From: Chelativorans multitrophicus
GTDB taxonomy: Bacteria > Pseudomonadota > Alphaproteobacteria > Rhizobiales > Rhizobiaceae
Assembly: GCF_011317445.1 (NCBI RefSeq)
Contig: NZ_JAAAPL010000003.1
Span: 186,001 to 250,000, forward strand
Direction of reading: 5' to 3'
Length of the DNA: 64,000 bases
Shown here piece by piece: positions 21,979 to 49,162 of the stretch; position 1 is the stretch's first letter, and the number at the start of each line of letters is the position of its first letter. A program made the translations under genes and the position numbers. The notes under the pieces are model-generated. The model was not told where the DNA came from, made no database searches, and saw nothing but the letters and a program-made list of their open reading frames with translations.

Positions 21979-22956
21979 ATGCTGCTCAAAGCCGAATTGC
22001 ATTGCCATATAGAAGGCGCGGCTTCGCCCGCATTGGTGAAAGCCCAGGCACGCAAATACGGCGCCGACATCTCCTCCTTCATCCGGGGCGGTGCATATTA
22101 TTGGCAAGACTTCACCACCTTTCTTCTCGCCTATGATCAGGCAGCGAGCCTCTTCCGTACGCAGGAGGACTATGCGCTTCTGGCCGAGACTTATCTGAAG
22201 GAGCTTGCCGCCGGGGGCGCGATCTATTCGGAGTTTTTCACATCGCCGGACCACGCGGAGCGAGCGGGGCTCTCTCCTCAGGCCTATACGGATGGGCTGG
22301 CCGAGGGCATGGTCCAGGCAAAGGCTGCAACCGGCATCGAATCCCGCATGATCGTCACCGGCGTGCGCCATTTCGGGCCGGAAGCCGTGGAGAAAGCTGC
22401 GCGCTTCGCCGCCTCGTGCGAGCACCCTCTGGTGACGGGCTTCGGCATGGCGGGCGACGAACGCGCCGGCCATCCCCGTGACTTCGCCTACGCCTTCGAT
22501 ATCGCCCGCGAAGCGGGGCTCGGCATCAGCATCCATGCCGGTGAGTTCGGCGGGGCGGAAAGCGTGGAAGCCGCGCTGGACCATATCCGCCCCTCGCGCA
22601 TCGGCCATGGCGTGCGGGCAATCGAAAATCCCGATCTCGTGCGCCGGATTGCCGATGAAGGCGTGGTGCTGGAAGTCTGCCCTGTCTCCAATGTGGTGCT
22701 TAAGGTCTTTCCCGAGTTCGCGCGTCATCCCTTTCCTCAGCTTGTGGCCGCGGGCTGCCGGGTGACGCTTAACTCCGACGATCCGCCGCATTTCCATACC
22801 AGCCTCGCGCGGGAATATGCGGTGGCGGCCGAATATTTCGGGCTCGATGAAACCACTCTCAACGCGATCACGAGCACGGCTATCGAGGCCGCATTCGTGG
22901 ATGAGAAGACCCGCGCGGCGCTATTTGCCCGCTTGAAGCCGGTGGTGGAGTCGTGA
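21979..22956 (+). CDS. add: Adenosine deaminase
   Basis: Zinc enzyme converting (deoxy)adenosine to (deoxy)inosine, 325 residues. Metal and substrate residues are visible in HCHIEGAA (residues 8-15), [11 protein letters not shown] near 190, RIGHGVRA near 213 and [11 protein letters not shown] near 270. Length and motifs suit the bacterial Add group, though adenine deaminase is a close alternative. It begins the nucleoside-salvage block (add, upp, then deoA-pnp-cdd and an ABC importer on the other strand). Confidence 0.88.
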
Positions 22957-32567: not shown

Positions 32568-34397
<1,830 letters not shown>

Positions 34398-34520: not shown

Positions 34521-34532
34521 CGTATTGCAATG
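34521..34532 (-). promoter_or_regulatory. Island motif CAWTGCAATWCG, copy 1
   Basis: The minus strand reads CATTGCAATACG. It lies in the 251-base divergent gap between the double-ATPase gene and the IclR gene. It shares the 12-bp consensus with copies at 36768 and 40418. Confidence 0.5.
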
Positions 34533-34558
34533 AGAAACTTCATATTGGATATTAGTCC

Positions 34559-34573
34559 GATGGATTTTCCATC
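34559..34573 (+). promoter_or_regulatory. Palindrome GATGGATTTTCCATC, possible IclR operator
   Basis: Perfect 6-bp arms (GATGGA/TCCATC) around TTT. The TGGA...TCCA form resembles known IclR-family operators. It sits in the divergent gap 76 bases before the IclR start, so autoregulation is plausible. Confidence 0.5.
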
Positions 34574-34648
34574 TGTCAACTCGAAATCAGCCGGTCCTCA
34601 GCCCTGCCTTATGGCATTTCCGCACCGTCAACCCAATCGGGGGGCGTC

Positions 34649-35446
34649 TTGAGCGCTCGCGATCCATTGATGGTGAAGTCGGTCGAGAAAGCGGTGCGCA
34701 TTCTCGGCGCCTTCAGCAACGGACAACCGACAATGAGCCTGGCCGATGTGGCTGCGCTGACGGGGTTAGACAAGAGCGGATCTCAGCGCTTTACGCACAC
34801 GCTGGTGCAGCTTGGCTTGCTGCGCAAGGATCCGGACACGAAGCGGTTCGAGCTGACCGCTCGCGTGCTTGAGTTCGGCGCCAACTTCACGCGCAGCAAC
34901 GAACTCGTGCGCGCGGCGGCCCCCCACCTGCTGAACCTGTCCAAGACGACGGAAGAGGCCGTCAGCTTGACCGTCCTGGACGATACCGACATCGTGTACA
35001 TCCAGCGGCTTGTGAGCCGCAACATGCTTACAACCGACGTCATCACTGGCACGCGCCTGCCGGCTTACTGCACGGCGCCGGGGTTGGCCCTGCTTTCCGG
35101 CATGCCGCGCGCCGAAGCACTGGCGATCATCCAACGCTCCGACCGCAAGCCGATCACGCCGAAGACGAAATGGGCGATGGACGAGATCGTCGAACAGCTG
35201 GAGCTGACGGCGGAGCACGGCTATGCGCTGGTCGTCGATCAGATCTACCTCAACGACATTTCCGTCGCGGCGCCCGTATATGGTGTGAATGGCCGGTCGA
35301 TCGCGGCGGTGAGCATCGGCGTGAGCAAGCTTCGCTGTACACCTGAGGAAGCCCGCAAGCGCTTCGCGCCGCTGCTGATCACGGTTGCGGAGGCACTTTC
35401 CCACGGCCGACCGCAACCGCGAGACTTAAAAAGGCCGCAGGCATAG
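34649..35446 (+). CDS. IclR family transcriptional regulator
   Basis: A 265-residue regulator with an N-terminal winged helix-turn-helix (about 8-70; KSVEKAVRILGAFSNG, MSLADVAALTGLDKSGSQRFTHTL) and a C-terminal effector-binding IclR domain. The TTG at 34649 has a run of G residues seven bases upstream; the ATG at 34670 is an alternative. It is divergent from the transporter ATPase gene, nine bases before an NAD(P)-binding protein gene, and is the best candidate to control the repeated motif found at three island promoters. Effector unknown. Confidence 0.9.
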   Translation: MSARDPLMVKSVEKAVRILGAFSNGQPTMSLADVAALTGLDKSGSQRFTHTLVQLGLLRKDPDTKRFELTARVLEFGANFTRSNELVRAAAPHLLNLSKTTEEAVSLTVLDDTDIVYIQRLVSRNMLTTDVITGTRLPAYCTAPGLALLSGMPRAEALAIIQRSDRKPITPKTKWAMDEIVEQLELTAEHGYALVVDQIYLNDISVAAPVYGVNGRSIAAVSIGVSKLRCTPEEARKRFAPLLITVAEALSHGRPQPRDLKRPQA

Positions 35447-35454
35447 GAACATCG

Positions 35455-36540
35455 ATGACCAGCCAGGTTGACATCGCCGTCTTCGGCGCGGGCCAGTTTG
35501 CCGAGCGGATCGTCACCGATCTCGGCGCGATAGCGCCCGGTCCGATCCGCGTCCTCATCGCGGCGCGCAACAGAGAACGGCTGGACTGGCTGGTCACCGC
35601 AGCGAATGCGCGCGCCTTCATGTTCGGCCGTCCAGCCGTGTTCGAGCCGGTCGTCCTCGACGCCTCAGACAAGCCGTCGGTCACCCGGATGCTGGCCGAA
35701 CGCCGCCCGCGCCTGGTGGTGCAGACCGCATCGTCGCAGCCGTCCGCCGTGATCGGTCACGAGGATACCAGATGGAGCCGCCTCATCGCCCGCGCCGGGT
35801 TGAGCGCGACCGCAGCCACGCAGTCGCTGCTGACGCTTAACGTTGGCGAGGCCATCCGGGACGCCGGCGTCGAGAGCGCATTGATAAACTGCTGCTTTCC
35901 CGACGTGGTGAATGCGCTGCTCGAAGCGCGTGGCATTCCCGTGCTGTGCGGCACGGGTAACGTCGCCATTCTGTCCAACGCCTTCAGTGGCGCGCTTTCC
36001 GACCGCACGCTTAAGCTGCAGGTGCTTGCGCACTACCAGCAACTGGTCGCCTGGCGAATGCCCGCGGAAAGTCGCGGCGGCGTGCCGCCGCGCGTCTGGA
36101 TAAACGGCGAGGAGTTGGAGGACGTCTTCGTCCGTTTCCGTAATATCAAGCTCACGGTCGCACCCGCGATCGAGATCTCAGGCGCAAGCGGCGTCTCGCT
36201 GATGTCGGCCTTCGTGCTCGGCCTGCCCTGGACCGGGCATGTCCCCGGACCTTCCGGACGGCCGGGAGGCTACCCGGTACGGCTTGCCGGCGGGCGCTTG
36301 GAGTTGGATCTTCCCACCCAGGTATCCGAAGCGGAGGCGATCGCTTGGAATGCCCGTTTTGAGACCGAGATGGGATTGGTCGTCGACGGCAGCGGCCATG
36401 CCCGCTTTACCGGCTTACTGCGCGAGTCACTCGCGGCGGAAGGCTTTCCTTTTGCTGATGGCTTCGAGGTCGCTCAGATCGAGCAGGTCGCCGCGGAGCA
36501 GATGAAGCTGCGCGCAAGGCTGGAAGCCATCCCCGCTTGA
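35455..36540 (+). CDS. NAD(P)-binding protein of unknown function (saccharopine-dehydrogenase-like N-terminus)
   Basis: A 361-residue cytoplasmic protein. A Rossmann start (VDIAVFGAGQFAERIV) and a second strand ending in AARNRERL are followed by a VVLDASDKPSVTRML segment, as in saccharopine dehydrogenase-like proteins. The rest (GISGASGVSLMSAF-like and PGPSGRPGGYPVRLAGG segments) does not point to a defined family. It lies directly behind the IclR gene and before the ABC operon, so it probably acts on the imported substrate. A link to lysine-type chemistry is tempting given the genes at 55-59 kb but is not shown. Confidence 0.7.
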   Translation: MTSQVDIAVFGAGQFAERIVTDLGAIAPGPIRVLIAARNRERLDWLVTAANARAFMFGRPAVFEPVVLDASDKPSVTRMLAERRPRLVVQTASSQPSAVIGHEDTRWSRLIARAGLSATAATQSLLTLNVGEAIRDAGVESALINCCFPDVVNALLEARGIPVLCGTGNVAILSNAFSGALSDRTLKLQVLAHYQQLVAWRMPAESRGGVPPRVWINGEELEDVFVRFRNIKLTVAPAIEISGASGVSLMSAFVLGLPWTGHVPGPSGRPGGYPVRLAGGRLELDLPTQVSEAEAIAWNARFETEMGLVVDGSGHARFTGLLRESLAAEGFPFADGFEVAQIEQVAAEQMKLRARLEAIPA

Positions 36541-36723
36541 AGTTGCGTCGCCGCAGTGCCGGCCTGAACCCATTCAGGTTGAAGCGGTTCTGAGGACGCT
36601 GACCAACTGCGCCCATATCGCCGGCATGCCGGCGATAACGCCTCTTTGCGACCTCCACGATCCCGATGCGGGCGCATGCAGACCGTCCAGCACGAAATGT
36701 CTAGAATTCAAGGAATAAGTCCG

Positions 36724-36751
36724 TTGACACAAAAATTTCATGTAGCATAAT
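36724..36751 (+). promoter_or_regulatory. Promoter of first island ABC operon
   Basis: TTGACA (36724-36729, perfect) is followed after 16 bases by CATAAT (36746-36751, five of six). A 32-base block shared with the promoter at 40373 begins inside the -10 box. The surrounding 294-base gap has no gene. Confidence 0.65.
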
Positions 36752-36767
36752 TCGATATAGAAAATTA

Positions 36768-36779
36768 CAATGCAATTCG
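36768..36779 (+). promoter_or_regulatory. Island motif CAWTGCAATWCG, copy 2
   Basis: Reads CAATGCAATTCG, 17-28 bases downstream of the -10 box and so just past the expected transcription start. This position suits a repressor. It is the 3' end of the 32-base block (36748-36779) shared with 40398-40429 at 26 of 32 positions. Confidence 0.55.
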
Positions 36780-36834
36780 CCTGAATGAGTAGCAATATCG
36801 CGTGGGCGTCTTTGCAAAAATAAGGGGAACCAGC

Positions 36835-38436
36835 ATGACACTCTCGAGACGAGGATTTTTGTGCCGCTCCGCCGCCGCAGGCGCCCTTCTTTCCATGCCG
36901 CTCAAGGCGTTCGCCCAGTCGGGAGAAATGGGCATGCTGCGAGTGGCGGTTTACACGGACATGGTGGGTTACGACCCGATCGTGACCACGTCGAACATCG
37001 CGGCCTATCATGGTGCGCTCGTGTACGACATGCTTTTCGGCAACGATGAAAACCAGATGCCGCATCCACAAATGGTCGGCGACTACACGATATCCGAGGA
37101 CAAGCTGACCTGGACGATGACGCTGCGAGACGGTCTGACCTTCTCCGACGGCAGCCCTGTGACGACGGCCGACGTGATACCATCCATCCTGCGCTGGCAG
37201 GCGCGTGCCAGCCAGAACGGCAAGCTGCTGGCGGCGGCTACGCAGGAGCTGGTGGCCTTGGACGACCGCACCTTCCAATTCAAGCTCAAGGAGCCGTTCC
37301 CGTTGTTGGCGGCAATGCTGGGCAGCCCGGCAACGCCACTGTGCTTCATCATGCGCAAGCGCGAGGCGGAAATGGATCCGGCTCAGGCGGTCGACGTCTG
37401 CATCGGCTCCGGCCCCTATGTGCTCAACACGCAGGAAACCCGTCCAGGTATCGACTACGTTTACGATCGTAATCCGAACTATGTGCCCCGCGAGGAGCCC
37501 GCGAGCGGGCTTTCGGGCGCCAAGATTGCGAATTTCGAGCGCGTCATTCTGGTGAACATGCCGGACGCTCAAACTGCGATCGCGGCGCTGCAGGCCGGTG
37601 AGATCGACTTCTACGAAATTCCGCCGATCGATTTCCTCCCCGTTCTGGAAAGCGATTCAAATCTCAAGGTCGCCGACATCATGAAGTCCGGCACCGAGGG
37701 CTCCATCATTCTCAACTGGCTGCAGCCGCCCTTCGATAACCTGAAGGTGCGGCAGGCCATGCTGTATGCCATTGACCAGGAGGCGGTCCTGAAGGGCCTC
37801 TTCGGCGATCCGAACTGGTTTAACGCGCATCCGAGCTGGTTCACCTACGGTTCGCCGCTTTACAACGAAGCGAACTCCGAGTGGTTCAGGATAGCGCCGG
37901 ATCCGGAGAAGGCGAAGCAACTGCTGGCCGAGGGCGGCTACGACGGAACCCCGGTCGTGCTTCTCCAGGCGACCGACCGCCAGGTCAATGCCGACGCCGT
38001 GACAATCATCGCGCAGCAGATGCGGGCGGCCGGCTTCAACGTGCAGATCGACGCCATCGACTGGGCGACTCTGCTGCAGCGCAGGCCGAACAAGGGACCG
38101 GTTTCGGAGGGCGGCTGGAATGCCTTCGTCTCCACCTTCAACGGCTTTATAAGCTCGAACCCCTACACATTCGGTCACATGGCCACGATCGGGGAGAACG
38201 GGTGGTTCGGATGGCCTTCGGACGAACGCAACGAGGAACTGAAGGCCGCCTGGATGAAGGCCGAAACGCCTGAGGAGCGGGTGGCGATTGCGGCGGAAAT
38301 CCAGGAGAACGCCTGGAATATCGTGCCGCGCGTATCCTACGGGCATTGGGTGCAACCGGTCGCATATCGCAGCAACCTGGACGGCTTCGTTAGCATTCCC
38401 GGCGTACTTGCCTTCTGGAACGTCAAGCGAGTCTGA
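36835..38436 (+). CDS. ABC transporter substrate-binding protein (peptide/opine type, Tat signal)
   Basis: Periplasmic binding protein of the DppA/OppA class (SBP family 5), 533 residues. The N-terminus SRRGFLCRSAAAGALL with a cleavage region after KAFAQ is a twin-arginine signal, so the protein is probably exported folded. ATG 36835 has AAGGGGA six bases upstream. Typical motifs include LRDGLTFSDGSPVTTADV and a C-terminal region with VQPVAYRSNLDGF. It is the first gene of the operon with two permease genes; the ligand is unknown (dipeptide, opine or modified amino acid are typical). Confidence 0.9.
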   Translation: MTLSRRGFLCRSAAAGALLSMPLKAFAQSGEMGMLRVAVYTDMVGYDPIVTTSNIAAYHGALVYDMLFGNDENQMPHPQMVGDYTISEDKLTWTMTLRDGLTFSDGSPVTTADVIPSILRWQARASQNGKLLAAATQELVALDDRTFQFKLKEPFPLLAAMLGSPATPLCFIMRKREAEMDPAQAVDVCIGSGPYVLNTQETRPGIDYVYDRNPNYVPREEPASGLSGAKIANFERVILVNMPDAQTAIAALQAGEIDFYEIPPIDFLPVLESDSNLKVADIMKSGTEGSIILNWLQPPFDNLKVRQAMLYAIDQEAVLKGLFGDPNWFNAHPSWFTYGSPLYNEANSEWFRIAPDPEKAKQLLAEGGYDGTPVVLLQATDRQVNADAVTIIAQQMRAAGFNVQIDAIDWATLLQRRPNKGPVSEGGWNAFVSTFNGFISSNPYTFGHMATIGENGWFGWPSDERNEELKAAWMKAETPEERVAIAAEIQENAWNIVPRVSYGHWVQPVAYRSNLDGFVSIPGVLAFWNVKRV

Positions 38437-38444
38437 ACACGCCG

Positions 38445-39386
38445 ATGCTCGGCCATTTCATCAAGGGACTGACCACCGCCATCCCCGTGATGGCGGTGGT
38501 CGCGATCATCGTCTTCCTGCTGCTGTTCCTCGCGCCCGGAGATCCCGCCGCCATCATGGCGGGCGAAAATGCGACGGCCGATACGATCGCGCAGCTTCGC
38601 GTTGCGCTAGGCGTGGATCAACCGATCCATCTCCGCTTCTGGAATTGGCTCAGCCCGATCCTGCACGGCGATCTGGGCAACTCCATCTATTGGCGTCAGA
38701 GTGTCGTGTCGCTGATCGGACAACGTGCCGGTCCCACCATATCGCTGGCGGTGACAACGTTGTTCGTTTCAGTCTGCACTGCGGTCACTCTTGGCGTCAT
38801 TGCTGCGGCGCGCGTCAACTCACGGCTCGACCGCGCCATCATGGGTTTTGCCGTCATCGCCTTCTCGGTGCCTACATTCGTCGTCGGCTATCTGCTGATG
38901 TTCGTCTTCGCGGTCCGGCTCGGCTATCTGCCTGTGCAAGGATACAAGCCCATAAGCGCCGGTTTCTGGCCGTGGCTCAGCCATCTCATCCTGCCGTCGC
39001 TGACCCTCGGCACCGTCTATGTCGCACTGATCGCCCGCATCACACGCGCCTCTATGCTGGAGGTGCTCTCGGAGGATTATATCCGTACCGCGCGTGCCAA
39101 AGGCGTACCGCGCCGGAGCATCCTTTTCCGGCACGCGCTGAAGAATGCCGCTGTGCCGATCGCCACCATAGTCGGCAACGGCATCGCGATCCTCATTAGC
39201 GGCGTGGTGATCACCGAGACCGTGTTCAACGTGCCGGGGATCGGACGGCTCGTGGTCGACGCCATCGCGCGGCGCGACTATCCGATCATCCAAGGCGTGA
39301 CGCTGCTGTTTGCCGGCGTCTATGTCTGCATCAACCTGCTGGTCGACATCTCCTATCGGCTCTTTGACCCGAGGATTCGCTACTGA
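38445..39386 (+). CDS. ABC transporter permease, DppB type
   Basis: Integral membrane subunit of 313 residues with six helices. It has the DppB-type periplasmic loop after the first helix (LRVALGVDQPIHLRFWNWL) and the EAA motif SEDYIRTARAKGVPRRSILFRHALKNA that docks on the ATPase. It starts eight bases after the binding-protein gene and shares one base with the next permease gene. Confidence 0.92.
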   Translation: MLGHFIKGLTTAIPVMAVVAIIVFLLLFLAPGDPAAIMAGENATADTIAQLRVALGVDQPIHLRFWNWLSPILHGDLGNSIYWRQSVVSLIGQRAGPTISLAVTTLFVSVCTAVTLGVIAAARVNSRLDRAIMGFAVIAFSVPTFVVGYLLMFVFAVRLGYLPVQGYKPISAGFWPWLSHLILPSLTLGTVYVALIARITRASMLEVLSEDYIRTARAKGVPRRSILFRHALKNAAVPIATIVGNGIAILISGVVITETVFNVPGIGRLVVDAIARRDYPIIQGVTLLFAGVYVCINLLVDISYRLFDPRIRY

Positions 39387-40204
39387 TGCTCCGCCTCAGC
39401 AGATCGCCTGGGCTGTTCCTGTGCGTTGGGTTGCTGTCTGTCTGCTTGGCCGGCGCGCTGTTTGCGCCCTTTCTCGCGAATGACCCGCTGATGACCACGC
39501 CGGCGAACCGGCTGATGCCTCCGGGACCGGATGCCTGGTTCGGCACCGATCACCTGGGACGCGACATCTTCGCGCGCTCGCTCTACGGCGCGCGCGTCTC
39601 GCTCAGTGTCGGCTTCGCAGTGGCCATGCTGGCGGTCGGTATCGGTCTGACGCTGGGCGTCCTGGCAGGATACTGGCGCTGGCTTGATCGGCTTCTCATG
39701 CGCGTCATGGACGGCGTAATGGCCATTCCCTCCATCCTGCTGGCCATCGCGCTCGTGGCGCTGCACGAGCCGGGGCTGGGAATCATGGTCATCGCCATCG
39801 CTATACCCGAGATACCGCGCGTGGCGCGACTGGCGCGTGCGGTGATCCTTTCCGTCCGCGAGCTGCCCTATGTCGAGGCGGCTACGGCATCCGGCATCCG
39901 GACTCCCCGCGTCCTGTTGCGCTACATCATGCCCAGTACCTATGCGCCGCTGATGGTGCAGGGCACCTACATCGTCGCGTCGGCGATCATCATCGAGTCG
40001 AGCCTGTCCTTCCTCGGCGCAGGCCTACCCCCCGAGGTTCCGACCTGGGGCAACATGATCGCCTCAAGCCGGCTCTACATATCGACGGCGCCCTGGACGG
40101 TGTTCGTGCCCGGCTCCTTCCTGGCGGTTGTCATCTACTCGATCAATCTCATCGGTGACGCATTACGCGATCACCTGGACGTGCGCATGGCCGGCCCCGG
40201 CTAG
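39386..40204 (+). CDS. ABC transporter permease, DppC type
   Basis: Second membrane subunit, 272 residues. FGTDHLGRDIFARSLYGARVSL near residue 52 is the DppC/OppC hallmark. The EAA motif is in LPYVEAATASGIRTPRVLLRYIMP. There are six predicted helices. It pairs with the DppB-type permease; no ATPase gene follows, so the fused ATPase at 32568-34397 is the likely energy subunit. Confidence 0.92.
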   Translation: MLRLSRSPGLFLCVGLLSVCLAGALFAPFLANDPLMTTPANRLMPPGPDAWFGTDHLGRDIFARSLYGARVSLSVGFAVAMLAVGIGLTLGVLAGYWRWLDRLLMRVMDGVMAIPSILLAIALVALHEPGLGIMVIAIAIPEIPRVARLARAVILSVRELPYVEAATASGIRTPRVLLRYIMPSTYAPLMVQGTYIVASAIIIESSLSFLGAGLPPEVPTWGNMIASSRLYISTAPWTVFVPGSFLAVVIYSINLIGDALRDHLDVRMAGPG

Positions 40205-40273
40205 TGGAGCCGGCACCGGAGGGAAAGTTCCGGAGCTTGGACGAGCGTCTCGTAAGACCCCCGCTTCTTCCAG

Positions 40274-40307
40274 AGTCGCCGGCACCTGTCTGGTGCGACT
40301 TTCGCGG
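40274..40307 (+). terminator. Possible weak terminator after first ABC operon
   Basis: AGTCG/CGACT with an inner CACC/GGTG stem separated by a 4-base bulge, followed by TTT, 70 bases behind the permease stop. It is weak by structure; the following gene has its own promoter, which is the better argument for a transcript end here. Confidence 0.3.
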
Positions 40308-40372
40308 TTCGCGACGCAGACCGAATATGTGCCGGCTTACAGCGAATCTTACGAAGGAGGCCACCTTGGCGG

Positions 40373-40401
40373 TTGACAGCGGCGCACAAACATAGCGTAA
40401 T
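40373..40401 (+). promoter_or_regulatory. Promoter of crotonase/flavoprotein operon
   Basis: TTGACA (40373-40378, perfect) is followed after 17 bases by CGTAAT (40396-40401, four of six). As at 36724, the 32-base conserved block starts inside the -10 box. Transcription would begin about 31 bases before the ATG at 40439. Confidence 0.6.
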
Positions 40402-40417
40402 GTGATATGTAAAATTG

Positions 40418-40429
40418 CAATGCAATACG
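40418..40429 (+). promoter_or_regulatory. Island motif CAWTGCAATWCG, copy 3
   Basis: Reads CAATGCAATACG and lies 10 bases before the crotonase start codon. It overlaps a perfect small palindrome, ATTGCA-A-TGCAAT (40414-40426). In this position a bound regulator would block both transcription and access to the leader. Confidence 0.55.
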
Positions 40430-40438
40430 GAATGCAAA

Positions 40439-41209
40439 ATGGATGATTTCGTCCTTCTCGAGCGCCGTGGAACCATCGCGGTCCTGACTCTTAACCGTCC
40501 GCAAATCCTCAACGCGTGGCATAGACCGATGCGGGAGCAGCTTCATGCCCATCTTGACGCGCTTGACGGGGAGGAAAGCTGCCGCGCGATCGTGCTGACG
40601 GGAGCCGGCGACCGGGCGTTCGGCGCCGGCCAAGACCTCAACGAAACGAAGACCTTCGACGAGGACCGTGCCGAAGAGTGGATCGAGGAGTGGCGGCGCC
40701 TCTACCTGCGCATCCGCACCTTGACCAAGCCGCTGGTCTGCGCGCTCAACGGGCTGGCCGCCGGCTCGGCATTCCAGGTTGCGCTTCTGTGCGACATCCG
40801 CGTCGGGCACGAGGGTTCGAAGATGGGCCAGCCGGAAATCAACTCCGGCATCGCCAGTTCGCTCGGGCCGTGGATCATGCGCGAAATGCTCGGCCTTTCG
40901 CGCACGACGGAACTGGTCCTGACCGGCCGCATGATGTCCGGCGCGGAGGCGCATCAGATCGGCCTCATCCATCATCTCGTGCCCGCTAGTGAGGTTCTGC
41001 CCAAGGCTCTTGAGATCGCTGCGGAATTGGCGCTGAAGGCGCCGCTGGCGATGCGGCTGAACAAAGCGCGGCTGCACGAGATGACTGTCGACGGCCTGCT
41101 CGACGGGCTCAACGCCGGCATTGCCATGCAGCGCCAGAGCTACGGCAGCGGCGAGCCTGCCGTGATGATGGAGAACTTTCTCAAGCGAAACAACAAGGCA
41201 TCGGCGTGA
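40439..41209 (+). CDS. Enoyl-CoA hydratase/isomerase (crotonase) family protein
   Basis: Crotonase-fold enzyme of 256 residues acting on a CoA thioester. The oxyanion-hole segments FGAGQDLNET and NGLAAGSAFQVALLCDIRVG are present. The Glu of QPEINSGIASSLG is near the position of one catalytic acid in hydratases, while the second usual Glu is not obvious, so the exact reaction (hydration, isomerisation, carnitinyl-CoA dehydration) is open. ATG 40439 (GGAA upstream) is chosen over 40415, which lies within the motif block. The ligase gene overlaps its stop, so the pair probably activates and then converts one acid. Confidence 0.85.
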   Translation: MDDFVLLERRGTIAVLTLNRPQILNAWHRPMREQLHAHLDALDGEESCRAIVLTGAGDRAFGAGQDLNETKTFDEDRAEEWIEEWRRLYLRIRTLTKPLVCALNGLAAGSAFQVALLCDIRVGHEGSKMGQPEINSGIASSLGPWIMREMLGLSRTTELVLTGRMMSGAEAHQIGLIHHLVPASEVLPKALEIAAELALKAPLAMRLNKARLHEMTVDGLLDGLNAGIAMQRQSYGSGEPAVMMENFLKRNNKASA

Positions 41210-42765
41210 GCGCGGAGCAGCCCTGCATGACCTCTCCGTTTCTCCGAATCTTCGACCTTGCGCAGATGGACCCAGAGCGCCTCTATGCACGCTTCGGAGA
41301 ACGCGACATCACCATAGGGGACGTTGCGAGAAATTCCGAAGCCGTCGCACGGATCCTGCTTGCTTCTGGACTCACGCCCGGTGCCCGCGTCGCGGTGATG
41401 ATGGAGAACCGCCCCCTTACAATCTCACTGATCTTCGGCATCGCGCGGGCCGGCATGGTCTGGGTGCCGATCAACACGCGCCAGCAAGGCGATTCCCTTG
41501 CTTATCAACTGGGCCATTGCAGACCCGCATTGCTAATCGTTGACGAGGCGCTACTGGCGAAAGTGCGCGATTGCGGGGCGGACGACGGCCACCTGGCGAT
41601 CCATTCCCTGGCCGACGATGCAGACACGCTCGACCTCCCGAATAATGGCCGCGCCGATGCCTTGCCTGCCCCTGTGGAAGCCGGCGAGACCTTCGCGATT
41701 ATGTATACGTCCGGCACCACCGGAGCGCCGAAAGGCGTACAGGTTACGCACCGCATGTTCGACTACGCCGCCAGGGCAGTCTCGATCGCCGGCGGGATCG
41801 AGGACGGCGACGTCATGTTCGTGTGGGAGCCGCTCTACCACATCGGCGGCAGTCAGCTTCTCCTTCTACCGCTGATGCACCGCGTGCACCTTCATCTCGT
41901 GCGGCGATTCAGCGCTTCCGGCTTCTGGGGCGACGTGCATGCCAGCGGCGCCACCCACATTCATTTCCTCGGTGGGATTCTGCAGATCCTGCTGCGCAAT
42001 CCTCCCTCACCGAACGACAGGGGACACCGCGTGCGTGTCGCCTGGGGCGGCGGCTGCGCGAGGGACGATTGGCAGGCGTTCGAACACCGCTTCGGTGTCG
42101 ACATCCGCGAAGCCTATGGGATGACCGAGGCTTCGAGCATAACGACAATCAATGTCGGCGGCCCGGTCGGATCGGTCGGCAAGCCGGTGCCTTGGTTCAA
42201 GGTCGAACTGCTCGACGAGGCAGGACAGCCGGTGCCGCCTGGCGAGCGCGGCGAGATTGTCGTGAGCGAACTCGAAGAAGGCGCGCTCTTCAAAGGCTAT
42301 CTCGACGCGCCCGAGGCAAACGCGCGCGTGCTGCGCGGCGGCCGGCTCTTCACGGGCGATGTCGGCATTTTCTCCGAGGATGGCTGGCTGACATTCCAGG
42401 GGCGGCTGAACGACTCGATCCGCCGCCGCGGAGAGAACATCTCCGCATGGGAGATCGAAAGCGCCGCCCTCAAACATCCAGCCATAGCAGAGGTGGCGAT
42501 GATCGGCGTGAAAGCCGACATCGGCGAGCAGGAGATAAAGCTGTTCGTCCGACCGGCCGACGGACACTCCATCGATGCTCCGCAGCTGCACGGCTGGCTG
42601 ACGGAACAGCTCGGCCGCTATCGCGCTCCACGCTACATCGCCTTCGTGGATAGTTTTCCGAAAACACCCAGCGAGCGCATCCGAAAGGGATTGCTCCCCC
42701 AAACCACGGACGATTGCTGGGATGCCGAATCGCACGCCCGCACCCTCCTGACGAGGACCGCATGA
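41206..42765 (+). CDS. AMP-binding acyl-CoA ligase (CaiC-like)
   Basis: ATP-dependent acid:CoA ligase of 519 residues in the ANL superfamily. The P-loop-like motif IMYTSGTTGAPKGV, EAYGMTEASS and the C-terminal hinge LTFQGRLNDSIRRRGENIS are intact, and a Lys near KTPSERIRKG serves adenylation. Similarity is to carnitine/crotonobetaine-CoA ligases, but the substrate is not provable. The GTG at 41206 overlaps the crotonase stop; the ATG at 41227 is an alternative start. Confidence 0.85.
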   Translation: MSAEQPCMTSPFLRIFDLAQMDPERLYARFGERDITIGDVARNSEAVARILLASGLTPGARVAVMMENRPLTISLIFGIARAGMVWVPINTRQQGDSLAYQLGHCRPALLIVDEALLAKVRDCGADDGHLAIHSLADDADTLDLPNNGRADALPAPVEAGETFAIMYTSGTTGAPKGVQVTHRMFDYAARAVSIAGGIEDGDVMFVWEPLYHIGGSQLLLLPLMHRVHLHLVRRFSASGFWGDVHASGATHIHFLGGILQILLRNPPSPNDRGHRVRVAWGGGCARDDWQAFEHRFGVDIREAYGMTEASSITTINVGGPVGSVGKPVPWFKVELLDEAGQPVPPGERGEIVVSELEEGALFKGYLDAPEANARVLRGGRLFTGDVGIFSEDGWLTFQGRLNDSIRRRGENISAWEIESAALKHPAIAEVAMIGVKADIGEQEIKLFVRPADGHSIDAPQLHGWLTEQLGRYRAPRYIAFVDSFPKTPSERIRKGLLPQTTDDCWDAESHARTLLTRTA

Positions 42766-43109
42766 TGAACCGATCGCAGGCACAGAAACAGCTACAGGGC
42801 AAGAGCGTCGAGGCGGGAGGCACACTGCATCGCCTGTGTGTTCGACAGTCGGTGCCGGTCACGATCTATCTCGACGGCAGCCCCATCGAGGCGCGCACCG
42901 GCGACAGCCTTCTCGCAGCGGTCATGAGCGCCGCGGCACGTCTGCGTATTAACGAGTTCGATGGCAGCCCGCGCGGCGGTTTCTGCGCGATGGGTGCGTG
43001 CCAGGATTGCTGGATCTGGGTCGAAGGCCGCCAGCGCGTGCGCGCCTGCACGACGCTTGTCGAGGAGGGCATGCGCCTTTCCACCACCGCAACCGTGATG
43101 GGCTGTTGA
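42762..43109 (+). CDS. (2Fe-2S)-binding subunit of opine-oxidase/HcnABC-type dehydrogenase
   Basis: Small ferredoxin-like subunit of 115 residues (HcnA / OoxA-OoxB gamma type). Cys75, Cys80, Cys83 and Cys96 give the C-x4-C-x2-C-x12-C pattern that binds one [2Fe-2S] cluster. The IYLDGSPIEARTGDSLLAAV segment is the usual beta-grasp start. ATG 42762 overlaps the ligase stop by four bases. It pairs with the next two flavoprotein genes to form a three-part membrane-linked amino-acid or opine dehydrogenase. Confidence 0.88.
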   Translation: MMNRSQAQKQLQGKSVEAGGTLHRLCVRQSVPVTIYLDGSPIEARTGDSLLAAVMSAAARLRINEFDGSPRGGFCAMGACQDCWIWVEGRQRVRACTTLVEEGMRLSTTATVMGC

Positions 43110-43113
43110 CGCC

Positions 43114-44490
43114 ATGACCGACCAGAACAACACACCTGTCGTCATTGTCGGAGCCGGGCCCGCTGGCATTGGCGCGGCGGCTGTGCTCGTTGCAGCGGGT
43201 CTGCGCCCCATTCTCCTCGATGAGGGGCGTGCGCCAGGCGGTCAGGGATACCGCAAGAGCGACCCCGCCCTGGGGCTTAATCTCGCCTATGCGCAGGAGC
43301 CGGAATACAAGGCCATACACGCGTTGTTCGAACGCCTGAGGGACAAGATCGACTACCGGCCCGAGACGCTTGCCTGGTCGGTCGACGCCGGCAGCGTGTT
43401 CACCGCTTTTCGCGGCAGCGTTGCCTCGGAAGGCATCCCGTTCGGCAGGCTGATCCTGGCTACTGGAGCGACCGACAAGGTGGCGCCGGTGCCAGGCTGG
43501 ACCCTGCCCGGCGTCTACTCGCTTGGCGGCGCACAGGTTCTGCTGAAGGACCAGGGCTGCGCCATCGGTCAGGATGTAGTCTTCTACGGATCGTCACCGC
43601 TGCTCTACCTCGCGGCCTGGCAGTATCTCGAGGCGGGGGCCCTCAAAGTCACCGTCCTCGACACCACGCCCTTTTCCGCGAAGATGAAGGCTAGCGCAGC
43701 GATCGCGTCCGTCCCAAAGCTGCTGCGTCAGGGCTTGGGCCTGATAGCGCGCCTGCGGATGCGAGGCATAACGATGCGCCACGGCGTGACCGACATGGCG
43801 ATCCACGGCGACGGCCGGGTCGAAGGCATATCCTACAGCTGGAAAGGTCGGCGGGAGACCAGGGCCTGCGACGGCGTCGCCATCGGGCACGGCCTTCGCT
43901 CCGAGATCCAGCTTGCTGAGCTGGCGGGCTGCGGCCTTGCCTATAACGCGCTCTTCGACCAGTGGCAGCCCGTTGTCGATGCCGACGGGCGTGGCGGCAG
44001 CGGTGTCTATCTCGCCGGCGACGGCACGCGCATCGGCGGGGCGGTGGCGGCCGAGCTCGCCGGGCGGATCGCAGCCAGCGCGTGCCTCGCCGATTTAGGG
44101 CACGCAGTAGATGCCGCCGAGGTCGCCGAGCTCAAGCGCCGCCGCGATGCGCACTGGCGAGCTCAGGACGGGCTGGCGAGGGCGTTCGCTTGGCCGAGGA
44201 AAGGCTTCGCCGAACTGCCGGACGCAACCGTACTCTGCCGCTGCGAGAACGTGACTGCAGGGCAAGTTCGCGGCATTGCAAAGACGATGACCGGCATTCC
44301 CGACATCAATCGGGTGAAGGCGTTGAGCCGCTGCGGCATGGGGCGCTGCCAGTCGCGCATGTGCGGCTTGGCGGCGATCGAGGTGGCGGCCGCTGCGCGT
44401 GGCGAGGCGCCCGCGAACCTCACCCACTACCGCGCCCAGCCCCCGATCAAGCCGGTCGCCATTCCGACTTCCTCGCAAGAGGTGGCGTGA
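43114..44490 (+). CDS. NAD(P)/FAD-dependent oxidoreductase subunit (OoxA/HcnB type)
   Basis: A 458-residue flavoprotein with FAD loop GAGPAGIG (13-20), a second dinucleotide-binding region around VVFYGSSPLLYLA and the FAD-closing GVYLAGDGTRIGGAVAA. The C-terminal domain has Cys375, Cys377, Cys407 and Cys412, a BFD-like [2Fe-2S] module as in the B subunits of hydrogen cyanide synthase, octopine/nopaline oxidase and D-hydroxyproline dehydrogenase. It lies four bases after the small ferredoxin-type gene. Confidence 0.88.
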   Translation: MTDQNNTPVVIVGAGPAGIGAAAVLVAAGLRPILLDEGRAPGGQGYRKSDPALGLNLAYAQEPEYKAIHALFERLRDKIDYRPETLAWSVDAGSVFTAFRGSVASEGIPFGRLILATGATDKVAPVPGWTLPGVYSLGGAQVLLKDQGCAIGQDVVFYGSSPLLYLAAWQYLEAGALKVTVLDTTPFSAKMKASAAIASVPKLLRQGLGLIARLRMRGITMRHGVTDMAIHGDGRVEGISYSWKGRRETRACDGVAIGHGLRSEIQLAELAGCGLAYNALFDQWQPVVDADGRGGSGVYLAGDGTRIGGAVAAELAGRIAASACLADLGHAVDAAEVAELKRRRDAHWRAQDGLARAFAWPRKGFAELPDATVLCRCENVTAGQVRGIAKTMTGIPDINRVKALSRCGMGRCQSRMCGLAAIEVAAAARGEAPANLTHYRAQPPIKPVAIPTSSQEVA

Positions 44491-44491
44491 C

Positions 44492-45676
44492 ATGGCGCGG
44501 CGCGAAAGCACACAGATCGCCATCATCGGCGCCGGCGCGATGGGCGCATGGACCGCGTTCCACATGGCCAGGCGCGGCGCGAGGGTGACGGTGATCGAGC
44601 GAAGTTTTCCTGGCGCCCAGGCGAGCGGCGTCAACTACGGCAACATGCGCATCCAGGGCCGTTTTCTGCCGCAGCTTCCGCTGTCGCTGCGCGCGCAGAA
44701 TATCTGGCAGCAGACGGAGGAGCTGGTCGGCGTCGATGTCGAGTTCCGCCAGTCCGGCCATATGCTGCTGGCGATGACGGCCGAGCATATGGCAAAGAAC
44801 GAGGCCTATGCGCGCGAGGCCGCCACCTACGACTACCATCTGGAACTCCTCGACGCCGCGGAGGTGCGCCGCCGATGGCCCTGGATCGCGCCGAAAGCGG
44901 TCGGTGCGTCCTTCTCTCCCATAGACGGTGCGGTCAACCCGCGCCTCGTTACTCCTGCCGTCGCGGCCGCGATCACACGTTTCGGCGTCACCATCGTCGA
45001 GGGCGAGAAAGTCGTCGCGGCCGAGCGGTGCGGGAGCGGATTTCGAATTACGACCGAGCCGGGCAGGATCATTGACGCCGAACTGCTGCTCAATTGCGCG
45101 GGCGCCTGGGCGCCAGAAGTCGCGTCTTGGTTCGGCGAAACGGTGCCGCTCTTCGTCGCCGGCCCGACGGAGATGGTTACCGAGCCCCTGCCCTACTTCA
45201 TGGTGCCGACCCTGCAGACGGTCGACGCCTCGATTGTCATTCGGCAGGTCGAACGCGGAAACATCATTGTCGCGGGCCACCCGCGCGGCCCTGCCGATGC
45301 GGTTAAAATGCGCTCGCGCATGGCCGGGGCGAAGACACTGGTCAATCTGCAGAAGGTTGCCGATATGGTCCCCAGCCTCGCGGGCGTGTCGGTCATCCGC
45401 ACCTGGTCCGGCATCGAGGGTTACCTTCCCGACCTGATCCCCGTGATGGGAGCAAGCGGCACGACGCCCGGCCTCTTTCATGCCTTTGGCTTCTCCGGCG
45501 GCGGCATGCAGCTTTCGCCTGCCGTCGGTGCGGTCATGTCCGAGCTGATGCTGGACGGCCGCTCGGAGACGCCGGTGGAGCCCTTCGGCATAGGCCGCTT
45601 CCAGGATGGCGCACGCCCCAGGGCCGCTCATGTCGACAACGCCGAGGAATTCGACGCGGGGGTGGTCAAGGTCTGA
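44492..45676 (+). CDS. FAD-dependent amine/amino-acid dehydrogenase subunit (DAO fold, OoxB/HcnC type)
   Basis: The likely catalytic subunit of the three-part dehydrogenase, 394 residues in the D-amino-acid-oxidase/sarcosine-oxidase fold. FAD loop IIGAGAMGAWTAFHMA (about 10-25) is followed by the VTVIER strand end, and the C-terminal substrate and FAD cap is at IPVMGASGTTPGLFHAFG with GFSGGGMQLSPAVG. Substrates in this family include octopine, nopaline, hydroxyproline, glycine and pipecolate-like imino acids; none can be chosen from sequence alone. ATG 44492 fits the family start. Confidence 0.88.
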   Translation: MARRESTQIAIIGAGAMGAWTAFHMARRGARVTVIERSFPGAQASGVNYGNMRIQGRFLPQLPLSLRAQNIWQQTEELVGVDVEFRQSGHMLLAMTAEHMAKNEAYAREAATYDYHLELLDAAEVRRRWPWIAPKAVGASFSPIDGAVNPRLVTPAVAAAITRFGVTIVEGEKVVAAERCGSGFRITTEPGRIIDAELLLNCAGAWAPEVASWFGETVPLFVAGPTEMVTEPLPYFMVPTLQTVDASIVIRQVERGNIIVAGHPRGPADAVKMRSRMAGAKTLVNLQKVADMVPSLAGVSVIRTWSGIEGYLPDLIPVMGASGTTPGLFHAFGFSGGGMQLSPAVGAVMSELMLDGRSETPVEPFGIGRFQDGARPRAAHVDNAEEFDAGVVKV

Positions 45677-45760
45677 TTTGCACTGCCGGGAGTACGCTCC
45701 CCAATCACCTGAAGAAGCCGGTAAAAACCGGTCGCGGCATCCAAATCCAGAGGTGTGACG

Positions 45761-47308
45761 ATGACAGAATTATATAAAATGAGAGGGCGCCGGGACATTT
45801 CACGTCGAGCCGTCCTGGCAGGCTCCGGCGGCCTCATTGGAGCTCTACTCGCAACCCGGTTCGCAGCCGCGCAAAGCGAGCCGAAGCGCGGCGGAACGCT
45901 GCGCGTCGCCTTCTCCTCCACCCCCGACAGCCTCGACCCGCAGCGGACCCTCGCGGCGGCCGGGCAGCAAATCTCGAGCCTCGTCTTCGATAACCTGACC
46001 CGCCTCGACGAAAACGGGATCGCCCAGCCCATGCTGGCCACGGCCTGGACCCCAGAGGCAGGAGGGGTTGAATGGGTGTTCGAGCTGCGCCAGGGCGTCA
46101 AGTTCCATCACGGCACCGAGTTCACGTCGGCGGACGTAGTAGCGACCATCGAGCGCGCCTATGCGCCGGACTCCACCTTCCGCTCAAAGGGGGCCTTTGG
46201 GCCGATCAAGGAGGTAAAGGCTGAGGGCCCGTACAAGGTCCGTTTCGTTCTCACGCAAGCCTTCGGCGAAATTCCGGTGGTGGTGGCCGGGCGCTGGTCG
46301 CGCATTATCGCCGCGGATGCGATCGATACGCTGGAGACCGCGCCCTCGGGCACCGGGCCGTTCCTCTTCAAGTCGTTCGAAGCGGGCGCCAGTGTGAACG
46401 TCGTGCGGAACCCCAGCTACTGGATCGAAGGCCAACCCTACCTCGACGGTGTGGAACTCGTCGGCATCAAGGAATCGATCGCGCAGCAAGCGGCGATCCG
46501 CGGCGGCAACGTCGACGTTCTTACGCAGATCCCGGTCGAGACATTCCTGTCGCTGCGCAATGCCGATGGCATCAAGGTTTTCTCGAAGGTCACCGGCGCC
46601 TACCAAGTGATCATGATGCAGTCCAACATGGCGCCTTTCGATAACCCGAAGGTGCGCGAGGCGTTCCGCTACGTGCTGGACCGCGACCTGCTGGTGGCCT
46701 CGGCGCTGCTCGGTCAGGGTCTCGTCGGCAACGACATGCCATTCCCGCCCGGCAGCGAATACCTGCCCGAAGTACCGCAATACAAGCAGGATCTCGATAA
46801 GGCCAAAGCGCTTCTCAAGGAGGCCGGCCACGAGACAATGGACATCGAGCTCTTCACCAGCTCGGAACGTCCACCCACCCCGAAGATCGCGCTCGCCTTC
46901 AAGGAGGCAGCGGCCAAGATCGGCGTCAACGTCACCATCACCGACGTTCCCTATGCCGAATACGCGGCCAACGTGGCGCGCAAGAAACCCTTCTACACGA
47001 CGCAGTGGAGCGCCTATCCGACGATCTACGAGCGGCTGTACAACATGTACCGCAGCGGGGCGAACTTTAAGTACGGCGCCGTCGAGGACGCCGACGGTCT
47101 GGACGCGCTGCTCGACCAGATCATTTCCGAACTCGACGACGACAAGCGCAAGGAGCTTATCAAGGAAGCGCTGATCAAGATCCACAAGCATGGTGAGCGG
47201 ATCATCCCCTACTTCACCATGTATGTCGGAGCCGCCAGCGAGCGGGTGCAGGCTTACACGCCGCCGACCTACGACATCATCGACTTCCGCGAAGTCTGGC
47301 TGTCGTAA
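45761..47308 (+). CDS. ABC transporter substrate-binding protein (peptide/opine type, Tat signal)
   Basis: Second family-5 binding protein in the island, 515 residues. The signal DISRRAVLAGSGGLIGALLA with cleavage after RFAAAQ is of twin-arginine type. GGTLRVAFSSTPDSLDPQRT opens the mature protein, and LRQGVKFHHGTEFTSADVV is the family signature. ATG 45761 has GAGG close upstream. It begins the tight seven-gene unit that runs to 55232. It is not a recent copy of the binding protein at 36835; the two differ widely. Confidence 0.9.
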   Translation: MTELYKMRGRRDISRRAVLAGSGGLIGALLATRFAAAQSEPKRGGTLRVAFSSTPDSLDPQRTLAAAGQQISSLVFDNLTRLDENGIAQPMLATAWTPEAGGVEWVFELRQGVKFHHGTEFTSADVVATIERAYAPDSTFRSKGAFGPIKEVKAEGPYKVRFVLTQAFGEIPVVVAGRWSRIIAADAIDTLETAPSGTGPFLFKSFEAGASVNVVRNPSYWIEGQPYLDGVELVGIKESIAQQAAIRGGNVDVLTQIPVETFLSLRNADGIKVFSKVTGAYQVIMMQSNMAPFDNPKVREAFRYVLDRDLLVASALLGQGLVGNDMPFPPGSEYLPEVPQYKQDLDKAKALLKEAGHETMDIELFTSSERPPTPKIALAFKEAAAKIGVNVTITDVPYAEYAANVARKKPFYTTQWSAYPTIYERLYNMYRSGANFKYGAVEDADGLDALLDQIISELDDDKRKELIKEALIKIHKHGERIIPYFTMYVGAASERVQAYTPPTYDIIDFREVWLS

Positions 47309-47338
47309 CTCGATGCCATCCTGTTCCGGGCCGATGTC

Positions 47339-48280
47339 ATGACGGAGATGATCATCCGCAGGGTCGGGCTCCTCGCCCTCATCCTGTTTGCCGTGTCGTT
47401 CATGACGTTCATGATCGTGAACGTGCTGCCTGGTGACGTGGCGGCGGTCGTTCTCGGCGACGGTGCGAGTCCGGAACAGGTCCATCTCCTGCGCGAGAAG
47501 CTCGGGCTCAACGAGCCCGTGCTTACCCGTTTCGTCAGTTGGCTGGGCGACATGCTGCGCGGCGACTTCGGCGTGTCGCTGCTCTACGGCCAGCCCATAA
47601 AGCCTATGCTGGCGACGCGCCTCTACAACTCGCTCGTACTCGCCTTCCTGGCCCTGGTCCTTTCAGTGCCGGTCGCAATCCTGCTCGGCACGGTCACCGC
47701 GATGAAGCGCGGTTCCTGGATCGACAGGATCATCTCGTCGCTGACGGCGGTCACCTTCGCGCTGCCGGAATTCGTCAAGGGCCTCGCGCTGATTCTGGTC
47801 TTCGGCATCTGGCTGGAGGTGCTGCCCGGCTCGAGCCTGATCGAGGCCGGCCGCCACCCCTTGTCGCAGCCGCTGATCCTGGTGTTGCCGGTGCTCACCG
47901 TGGCCATCGGCATGCAACCCTATTTCGTGCAGATCACCCGCGCGGGCATGATTGAGGCCTTCCGGAGCGACTATGTGCGTACTGCGGTGCTCAAGGGCCT
48001 GCCGCCACATGTGGTGGCGCTCAAGCACGCACTGCGCAATGGCGTGCTGCCCGCCGTCGCCGTCATTGGCATGACGCTGGGCAACGCACTTGGAGGGCTC
48101 GTCGTCGTCGAGACGGTCTTCTCCTACCCCGGCATCGGACAGCTCATGGTCAGCGCCATATCGGCGCGCGACGTGCCTATCATTCAGTCGACGGTGATGA
48201 TTGTCGCGGCCGCCTACGCCGTCGGCAACCTTCTGGCCGACATCGTCTCCATCGCGCTCAACCCGCGACTGCGATACTGA
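47339..48280 (+). CDS. ABC transporter permease, DppB type
   Basis: Membrane subunit of 313 residues with six helices. GDGASPEQVHLLREKLGLNEP is the usual loop after the first helix, and the EAA motif is in FRSDYVRTAVLKGLPPHVVALKH. It partners the binding protein encoded before it and the DppC-type permease after it. The start may be 47339 or the ATG at 47348. Confidence 0.92.
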   Translation: MTEMIIRRVGLLALILFAVSFMTFMIVNVLPGDVAAVVLGDGASPEQVHLLREKLGLNEPVLTRFVSWLGDMLRGDFGVSLLYGQPIKPMLATRLYNSLVLAFLALVLSVPVAILLGTVTAMKRGSWIDRIISSLTAVTFALPEFVKGLALILVFGIWLEVLPGSSLIEAGRHPLSQPLILVLPVLTVAIGMQPYFVQITRAGMIEAFRSDYVRTAVLKGLPPHVVALKHALRNGVLPAVAVIGMTLGNALGGLVVVETVFSYPGIGQLMVSAISARDVPIIQSTVMIVAAAYAVGNLLADIVSIALNPRLRY

Positions 48281-48295
48281 CCGAGGACGCAGATC

Positions 48296-49162
48296 ATGCA
48301 AAACGCTTCTGCCAGCGCTTCCAGCCAGATCCCTCCCCTCCGCCGCTATCGGCTGCGCCCGGTTGACCTTGTGCTCGGGCCGGTCATCCTGGTGGTGTTC
48401 TTGATGCTGCTGGTGCCCGGCTGGATCGCCCCCGGCAGTCCGACCGAGTTCGACCCGATGGCATCGCTCATCCCCCCGGGCGGGGATTACCTCCTCGGCA
48501 CCGACGAGTTCGGCCGAGACGTGTACACGCGCATAGTCCACGGCGCCCGCCCGACGCTCATCGTCGCTTTCGCCGGCGCGGTGGTCGGCGTCATCCTGGG
48601 CACACTCACCGGCATGCTCGCGGGCTATGCCGGCGGACGAGTCGACGAGACATTGATGCGCTTTATGGATGCGTTGATGTCGTTTCCAACACTGATCCTC
48701 GCCACGCTCATCGTCGTGATGCTCGGTTCGAACCCGGTCAACGTGGTCGCCGCCCTGGCGGTGGTATTCTGGCCCCGCTCGGCGCGCATCGTACGGGCGG
48801 TGGCGATGGACGTCGCGCGGCGCGCTTTCATCGAGGCCGCCTGGGTGCGCGGCGAGAGCCATCTGTTCATCCTGTTTCGGGAGCTTCTGCCGAGCGTGAT
48901 GAACGTTGCGGTAATCGATCTCAGCCTGCGCATCACCTATGCGACCATGCTCTCGGCTTCGCTGTCCTATCTCGGTGTGGGCGTCCATCCCCCGACACCG
49001 GCCTGGGGCCTCATGGTCAAGGAGGGGCAGCAATTCATCCAGTTCGCCAGCTGGCTGGTGGTGGTGCCCTGCACGACGATCGCGATCGTGGCGGTGACTT
49101 GCGTGCTGCTCGGCGAACGCTTGCGCGAGCTGCTCGCGCCCGCCCACCGGGGGGAACAATGA
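48296..49162 (+). CDS. ABC transporter permease, DppC type
   Basis: Membrane subunit of 288 residues. The LLGTDEFGRDVYTRIVHGARPTL hallmark lies near residue 66, the EAA motif near RRAFIEAAWVRGESHLFILFRELLP, and the cytoplasmic N-terminus is extended and Arg-rich. The stop overlaps the start of the fused ATPase gene (four bases). Confidence 0.92.
   Translation: MQNASASASSQIPPLRRYRLRPVDLVLGPVILVVFLMLLVPGWIAPGSPTEFDPMASLIPPGGDYLLGTDEFGRDVYTRIVHGARPTLIVAFAGAVVGVILGTLTGMLAGYAGGRVDETLMRFMDALMSFPTLILATLIVVMLGSNPVNVVAALAVVFWPRSARIVRAVAMDVARRAFIEAAWVRGESHLFILFRELLPSVMNVAVIDLSLRITYATMLSASLSYLGVGVHPPTPAWGLMVKEGQQFIQFASWLVVVPCTTIAIVAVTCVLLGERLRELLAPAHRGEQ

Follow-up and report, generated by a model that had tools for sequence, protein, structure and literature searches.

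Within a 64,000-nucleotide stretch of Chelativorans multitrophicus DNA (contig NZ_JAAAPL010000003.1, positions 186,001 to 250,000; hereafter the window, meaning the whole stretch that was analysed), a gene for an IclR-family regulator lies among an ATP-binding cassette (ABC) transporter operon, a separate gene for an ABC ATPase, and a catabolic operon that begins with a crotonase gene, and the question raised by this locus is whether these units form one regulon and through which operator. A preliminary description of the sequence had answered that a 12-bp motif, CAWTGCAATWCG, marks all three promoters and that one regulator, probably the IclR protein, acts there just past the transcription start. 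Our analysis makes it very likely that a local IclR repressor acts at the three promoters through a predicted operator of three boxes and is released by an intermediate. The regulator, the predicted operators (with their scores and ranks from a matrix built on relatives), and the promoters are listed here.

34649..35446, plus strand: IclR-family regulator; the start is probably ATG 34670, at the beginning of the conserved MVxSVEKAFRVL
34522..34549, minus strand: predicted operator before the ABC ATPase gene; core 34536->34524; score 23.5, rank 2; box 1 with CAATA 34549->34542, weak box 2 34538->34531, perfect box 3 34529->34522
36751..36778, plus strand: predicted operator of the first ABC operon; core ATTACAATGCAAT at 36764-36776; score 12.8, rank 3
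40401..40428, plus strand: predicted operator of the catabolic operon; core ATTGCAATGCAAT at 40414-40426, a perfect palindrome; score 25.3, rank 1
34549..34579, minus strand: promoter of the ATPase gene, read from the sequence; TTGACA 34579->34574; -10 box TAATAT 34554->34549 (19-base spacer) or ACTAAT 34556->34551 (17)
36724..36751, plus strand: promoter of the first ABC operon, from a consensus scan; TTGACA-N16-CATAAT, 11/12 to consensus
40373..40401, plus strand: promoter of the catabolic operon, read from the sequence; TTGACA-N17-CGTAAT

From a shared 12-mer to a three-box element

The observations from which the preliminary description set out are correct: exact copies of the 12-mer lie at 34521-34532 (minus strand), 36768-36779, and 40418-40429, 26 of 32 positions are identical between the blocks 36748-36779 and 40398-40429, and a perfect TTGACA stands at 36724-36729 and 40373-40378 and also at 34579-34574 on the minus strand. 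The two blocks are each other's best match among the 32-mers of the window on both strands, the next best reaching 19 and 20. The 12-mer alone proves nothing, because copies lie in coding frames and its matches in the window fall below the shuffled expectation. A fourth exact copy (21993-22004, minus strand) falls within the gene for an adenosine deaminase (21979-22956, PF00962) and is probably due to chance, since it scores -2.7 with the 32-base matrix of relatives. Genome-wide there are seven exact copies compared with one for the reversed control, and the three that lie outside the window (L001, L002, L007) sit in open frames that measure 492, 694, and 641 codons from stop to stop. We therefore rejected the 12-mer as the operator, as it is present in coding sequence too and not enriched in the window. 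It is too short and off-centre: it takes in no more than the right-hand portion of a longer element, which begins at the -10 box and recurs far above chance, and if random frequency elsewhere is taken as grounds for refutation, as it was at the outset, the 12-mer would fare badly while the full element passes.

The full element consists of three alternating boxes, TGCAATAA>-N3-<TTATTGCA-N1-TGCAATA>, that span from the -10 box to about +20 (the transcription start being an estimate) and contain a 13-bp palindrome, ATTGCAWTGCAAT; box 1 and box 3 are 20 bases, or two turns, apart. It emerged from an exhaustive search for palindromes with 6-base arms in 21 divergent iclR-crotonase regions of relatives, the window excluded. 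ATTGCA-N1-TGCAAT scored 56 and TATTGC-N3-GCAATA 60, compared with a maximum of 14 in 20 dinucleotide-shuffled sets (spacers 0-3), and the former is present in the 21 regions exactly in 5 cases, with one mismatch in 8, two in 4, and three in 4. The spacer-7 palindrome TGCAAT-N7-ATTGCA scored 46 and has its middle box in common with the spacer-1 palindrome, and the aligned promoters of 18 relatives show an extra box some 13 bases upstream of the core, so that three half-sites of alternating direction are found in them, as in three-box IclR operators. The consensus was taken from the 16 full-length rows of these 18, with L138-L140, whose best cores have three mismatches, left out of the alignment. 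In 16 of the 18 aligned promoters a TTGAC precedes the core by 40-43 bases, and in the window it does so by 41, 40, and 43.

A 32-base matrix was then built from 15 relatives, again without the window; L132, a shorter row, was not used, nor were L057 and L133, which are near-duplicates. Among about 128,000 positions on both strands, it ranked the three cores (40414 and 36764 on the plus strand, 34536 on the minus strand) in the first three places; the hits that follow (7.5, 7.3, and 1.6) overlap with these operators, and no position elsewhere in the window scored above -0.5. With 300 column-permuted matrices, the three sites never came together in the top 10. A second matrix of 13 sites from named plasmid loci, which had been picked with the first matrix, gave the same ranks (26.7, 26.3, and 22.9). 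When only the 13-base core is scored, the ATPase site comes no higher than eighth with 10.5, behind the copy in the adenosine deaminase gene with 18.1, and the case for this site therefore rests on the longer element. The three sites match, by construction, the 27-base element that they have in common, and nothing else in the 4.8-Mb genome matches it with three mismatches or fewer. The core of the catabolic operon is the only exact 13-mer in the genome, and the nine places within one mismatch of it comprise two island promoters, one place abutting a tRNA-Leu gene end (L075), and six inside open reading frames.

It is hardly credible that all this is due to chance, to a composition like that of promoters, or to a promoter that was recently duplicated and has no regulatory meaning. 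Such an origin would fit a 12-mer no commoner than chance in the window and ABC and crotonase promoters that may be copies, as they are identical at 30/37 positions and neither exceeds 25 with any of 16 relatives; it is contradicted by the column-permuted controls, by recurrence of the element across families and classes, and by the ATPase-gene site, which is identical at 21/37 positions to each of the other two and still fits the relatives' matrix. Bulk duplication of the promoter was rejected, as the likeness between the ABC and crotonase promoters is confined to a short stretch, ending at about -21 and +16 of the core (3/19 and 2/11 identical beyond), which leaves a short copy or a shared constraint. 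An RNA hairpin at the element, considered by eye, was thought unlikely given its one-base loop.

The element beside relatives of the regulator

The regulator has both domains of its family above cut-off, PF09339 (HTH_IclR, N-terminal) with 55.1 bits (cut-off 22) and PF01614 (IclR_C, C-terminal) with 124.6 bits (cut-off 24). We compared 18 places in the family, 16 in the order or class, 11 genome-contig loci, and 12 of 70 plasmid records. Relatives of the IclR protein at E <= 1e-55 were found in 14/297 family, 11/397 order, and 8/385 class genomes, with the window's own genome counted each time, and the 70 plasmid records (E <= 1e-40) include relatives of up to 54% identity in Azospirillum, Chelatococcus, Ensifer, Shinella, Bosea, and others. 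The four other sampled genomes of the genus give weak best matches (E about 1e-42 to 1e-32), whereas identities in other genera go up to 54%. Loci whose IclR is at least 42% identical all have the recognition-helix stretch SxxQRF (45/45), compared with 0/12 below that.

Relatives of about 42-54% identity sit beside related clusters, in alpha- and some betaproteobacteria, in which a crotonase gene (52-67%), usually divergent, recurs. Fuller clusters add an ABC transporter, an AMP-ligase (AMP, adenosine monophosphate), a dehydrogenase-like protein, and, behind iclR, an operon for 2Fe-2S, flavin adenine dinucleotide (FAD), and DAO-type proteins; smaller ones (L042-L044, L130) have iclR, crotonase, and ligase only. 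The element is conserved with the regulator and the pathway: scanning relatives with a matrix finds it again before their crotonase and 2Fe-2S/FAD operons. Best or second-best hits lie before the crotonase or ligase operon at 11 of the 12 plasmid loci (weakly at L146, with 13.0), and the four plasmid clusters with a 2Fe-2S/FAD operon annotated beside iclR (L144, L149, L150, L153) all have a further site directly before that operon. At loci outside the matrix, we took the best score within 450 bases of iclR, with a threshold of 15. This was reached at 18/21 loci with an IclR of at least 44.5% identity, 4/9 with 40-44.5%, and 1/12 below 40%, compared with 5/285 background windows. The first group stands at 15/18 without L057, L132, and L133, which had been seen in the alignment step, and at 14/17 when L145, whose site has the same letters as L038, is also removed; among the nine intermediate loci, L138-L140 had been seen in the discovery step, and the iclR upstream regions of some others had previously been viewed.

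These results support a single regulator, probably IclR, acting at or just past the transcription start, since the element accompanies IclR relatives across genera, and they likewise favour the proposed union of transporter, distant ATPase, and degradative operon in one regulon, whose three predicted sites a matrix made only from relatives ranks first. Several observations nevertheless weigh against this reading. Each window site has one weak box (box 2 at 34524-34536, box 1 at the other two), and with up to two mismatches, the 12-mer is rarer in the window than in shuffles (9 matches, 16.4 expected). The consensus promoter scan picked up only 36724 of the three promoters and gave 2 promoter-like sites in the region compared with 1.4 in shuffles. 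Among loci of 40-44.5% identity, only 4/9 reach the threshold although all have SxxQRF. With an IclR above 44.5%, L147 (plasmid pJP4, a different cluster) has no hit of at least 5, and L146 and L154 have hits before a crotonase gene about 6.5 kb from iclR (13.0 and 19.6) and none near iclR, while L052, with an IclR below 40%, yet has a site of 19.6. The 13-mer is by itself undiagnostic, being present exactly in 48/297 family genomes, and only 4 of the 29 fetched family places (L082-L110) have an IclR relative adjoining; it was accordingly rejected as a genome marker.

The 25 fetched copies without such a neighbour could also mean that the element belongs to a regulator encoded elsewhere and that IclR is a mere bystander. 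We consider this improbable, as the element tracks the IclR clade through varied layouts (divergent, co-directional iclR-crotonase-ligase, and with iclR at the far end), a site of at least 15 is missing beside 11 of the 12 IclRs under 40% identity, and the IclR family binds palindromic or three-box sites, according to the part of PMC8222616 available to us.

Some further sites were recorded among these loci. High-scoring ones (26-33) about 2-5 kb from iclR in L048 (4984), L131 (7845), L132 (6171), and L133 (13347) are perhaps further regulon members there. An exact 13-mer at L098:1501-1513 separates a more distant IclR gene (36%) from a divergent SBP_bac_5-like gene, which may point to a broader use of this box. 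In a Shinella plasmid, L152 (226-234), a site of 19.6 lies between genes for an FAD-binding oxidoreductase and an alpha-hydroxy acid oxidase, near another IclR gene.

Proposed mode of action and the genes of the island

Bound as a dimer or tetramer to the three-box operator, which at three sigma-70-type promoters reaches from the -10 box to about +20, the IclR protein would block RNA polymerase at the Dpp/Gsi-type ABC operon, at the ATPase gene across iclR, and at the crotonase/ligase/2Fe-2S/FAD/DAO operon. The substrate or a coenzyme A (CoA)-thioester intermediate, held in the C-terminal domain, would release it and so allow joint uptake and degradation. We infer binding by IclR, repression over activation, an inducer, autoregulation, and the transcription starts. 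Repression by exclusion of polymerase is favoured because the element lies over the -10 box and the bases that are transcribed first, a typical place for a repressor, and because the promoter at 36724-36751 matches the consensus so closely that it should need no activator. What tells against it is that the -10 boxes of the other two promoters (40396-40401 and 34549-34556), which the consensus scan missed, are poor, and that the NCBIfam model nearest to the regulator is that of PcaR/PcaU/PobR (TIGR02431; 198.5 bits, below the cut-off of 284.75 for membership). PcaU- and PobR-type relatives act as activators, and PcaU, PobR, and PcaR are activators or dual regulators. The same IclR at the same sites might therefore be an activator or dual regulator that helps polymerase at weak -10 boxes, an unlikely alternative, though one to be taken seriously.

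The genes that the putative repressor would control, and those around them, are as follows.

32568..34397, minus strand: fused double ATPase, nearest GsiA (801.9 bits, below the cut-off of 1077); two ABC_tran and two oligo_HPY stretches
35455..36540, plus strand: dehydrogenase-like protein (the name is a guess); conserved cluster member, 48-54% in relatives
36835..40204, plus strand: Dpp/Gsi-type transporter; SBP_bac_5 protein 36835-38436, permeases 38445-39386 and 39386-40204 (Opp/Gsi-like)
40439..45676, plus strand: catabolic operon; crotonase 40439-41209, AMP-ligase 41206-42765, 2Fe-2S protein 42729-43109, FAD protein 43114-44490, DAO-type flavoprotein 44489-45676

The double ATPase is the presumed partner of the transporter at 36835-40204, as that operon has no ATPase of its own. 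The crotonase gene starts with ATG 40439, 12 bases beyond the operator core, and the catabolic genes overlap or are closely spaced and so probably form one operon; because the 2Fe-2S/FAD/DAO genes follow the ligase within it, one operator would serve them too. For the dehydrogenase-like protein, we found no sequence relative in Pfam, NCBIfam, or PDB, and its structural model is poor (predicted local distance difference test score 55.9, three sequences), with a Rossmann-like N-terminus. Among the island genes scanned, none was named above cut-off as a protocatechuate or 4-hydroxybenzoate enzyme, and a substrate was not found; the ligase and crotonase match many families below cut-offs and many solved structures with different substrates. 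Directly behind the catabolic genes lies a second transporter, of the Dpp/Opp type (45755-51234), which has a double ATPase of its own. A further operator before it was rejected, there being none among the window's 14 best matrix hits, and it is possibly read through from the promoter at 40373.

Novelty and relation to known systems

New features are the regulon itself, the sequence of its operator, and the placement of a Dpp/Gsi-type transporter under an operator found elsewhere in front of a Pot-like transporter. In Bosea L149, the one relative in which it was scanned, the transporter is of a Pot/Phn-like type: it has SBP_bac_8, an ATPase that carries TOBE_2 and comes nearest to PhnT2 and PotA, and a fused permease closest to PotH/PotB and PotC, all matches being below NCBIfam cut-offs; both transporter types have BPD_transp_1 permeases. 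The relatives' operator precedes the Pot-like ABC operon, and in the window the Dpp/Gsi transporter and the separate ATPase gene may each have come under it by operator capture. Since the ABC and crotonase promoters resemble each other more than either resembles any of the 16 relatives, copying of the catabolic promoter is suggested. We offer only tentatively the combined proposal that TGCAATA is a third type of IclR box and that the regulon was rewired by operator capture, possibly by such copying. The analysis provides a predicted operator and regulon for an IclR clade in Microvirga, Bosea, Chelatococcus, Azospirillum, Shinella, Salipiger, Sagittula, Aureimonas, and Ensifer, and more weakly in Caballeronia and Paraburkholderia; it places transporters of two types under one operator, and it makes a CoA-linked pathway testable via promoter response.

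A literature search turned up no title or abstract describing this operator, and the supplement of PMC8222616 (181 groups), which lay outside that search, may include it; a sequence match in PMC6050381 was set aside, as the part of that paper at hand identifies it as polymerase chain reaction primers. Among enzymes, the flavin-containing opine dehydrogenase OdhABC (PMC4575208) has, in the part of that report available, three different subunits with FAD, flavin mononucleotide, and 2Fe-2S, encoded side by side; the island similarly has adjoining 2Fe-2S, FAD, and DAO-type flavoproteins, a likeness by description only, but unlike OdhABC, the set comes with a crotonase and an AMP-ligase. Among regulators, the closest named subfamily model is again PcaR/PcaU/PobR, with a score under cut-off. 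Three-box IclR operators (PcaU, PobR, HmgR) have been described for 32 orthologous groups (Suvorova and Gelfand 2021, PMC8222616), and tandem IclR sites two turns apart are already described there, as far as the accessible text goes. The preliminary description had found no match to a known IclR operator, which holds for the sequence and not for the architecture: the published systems share with the island the alternating boxes, the IclR protein, and the adjoining catabolic operon, whereas the box TGCAATA differs from the consensuses GKTYCRY... and TGRAACA-N1-2-TGTTYCA in the part of the paper seen, with TATTGCA-N-TGCAATA agreeing with the latter by eye at 3/7 positions per box and fitting neither the group 1 nor the group 2 consensus. 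Taken together, this appears to be a genuine regulon of a familiar kind whose operator has its own sequence.

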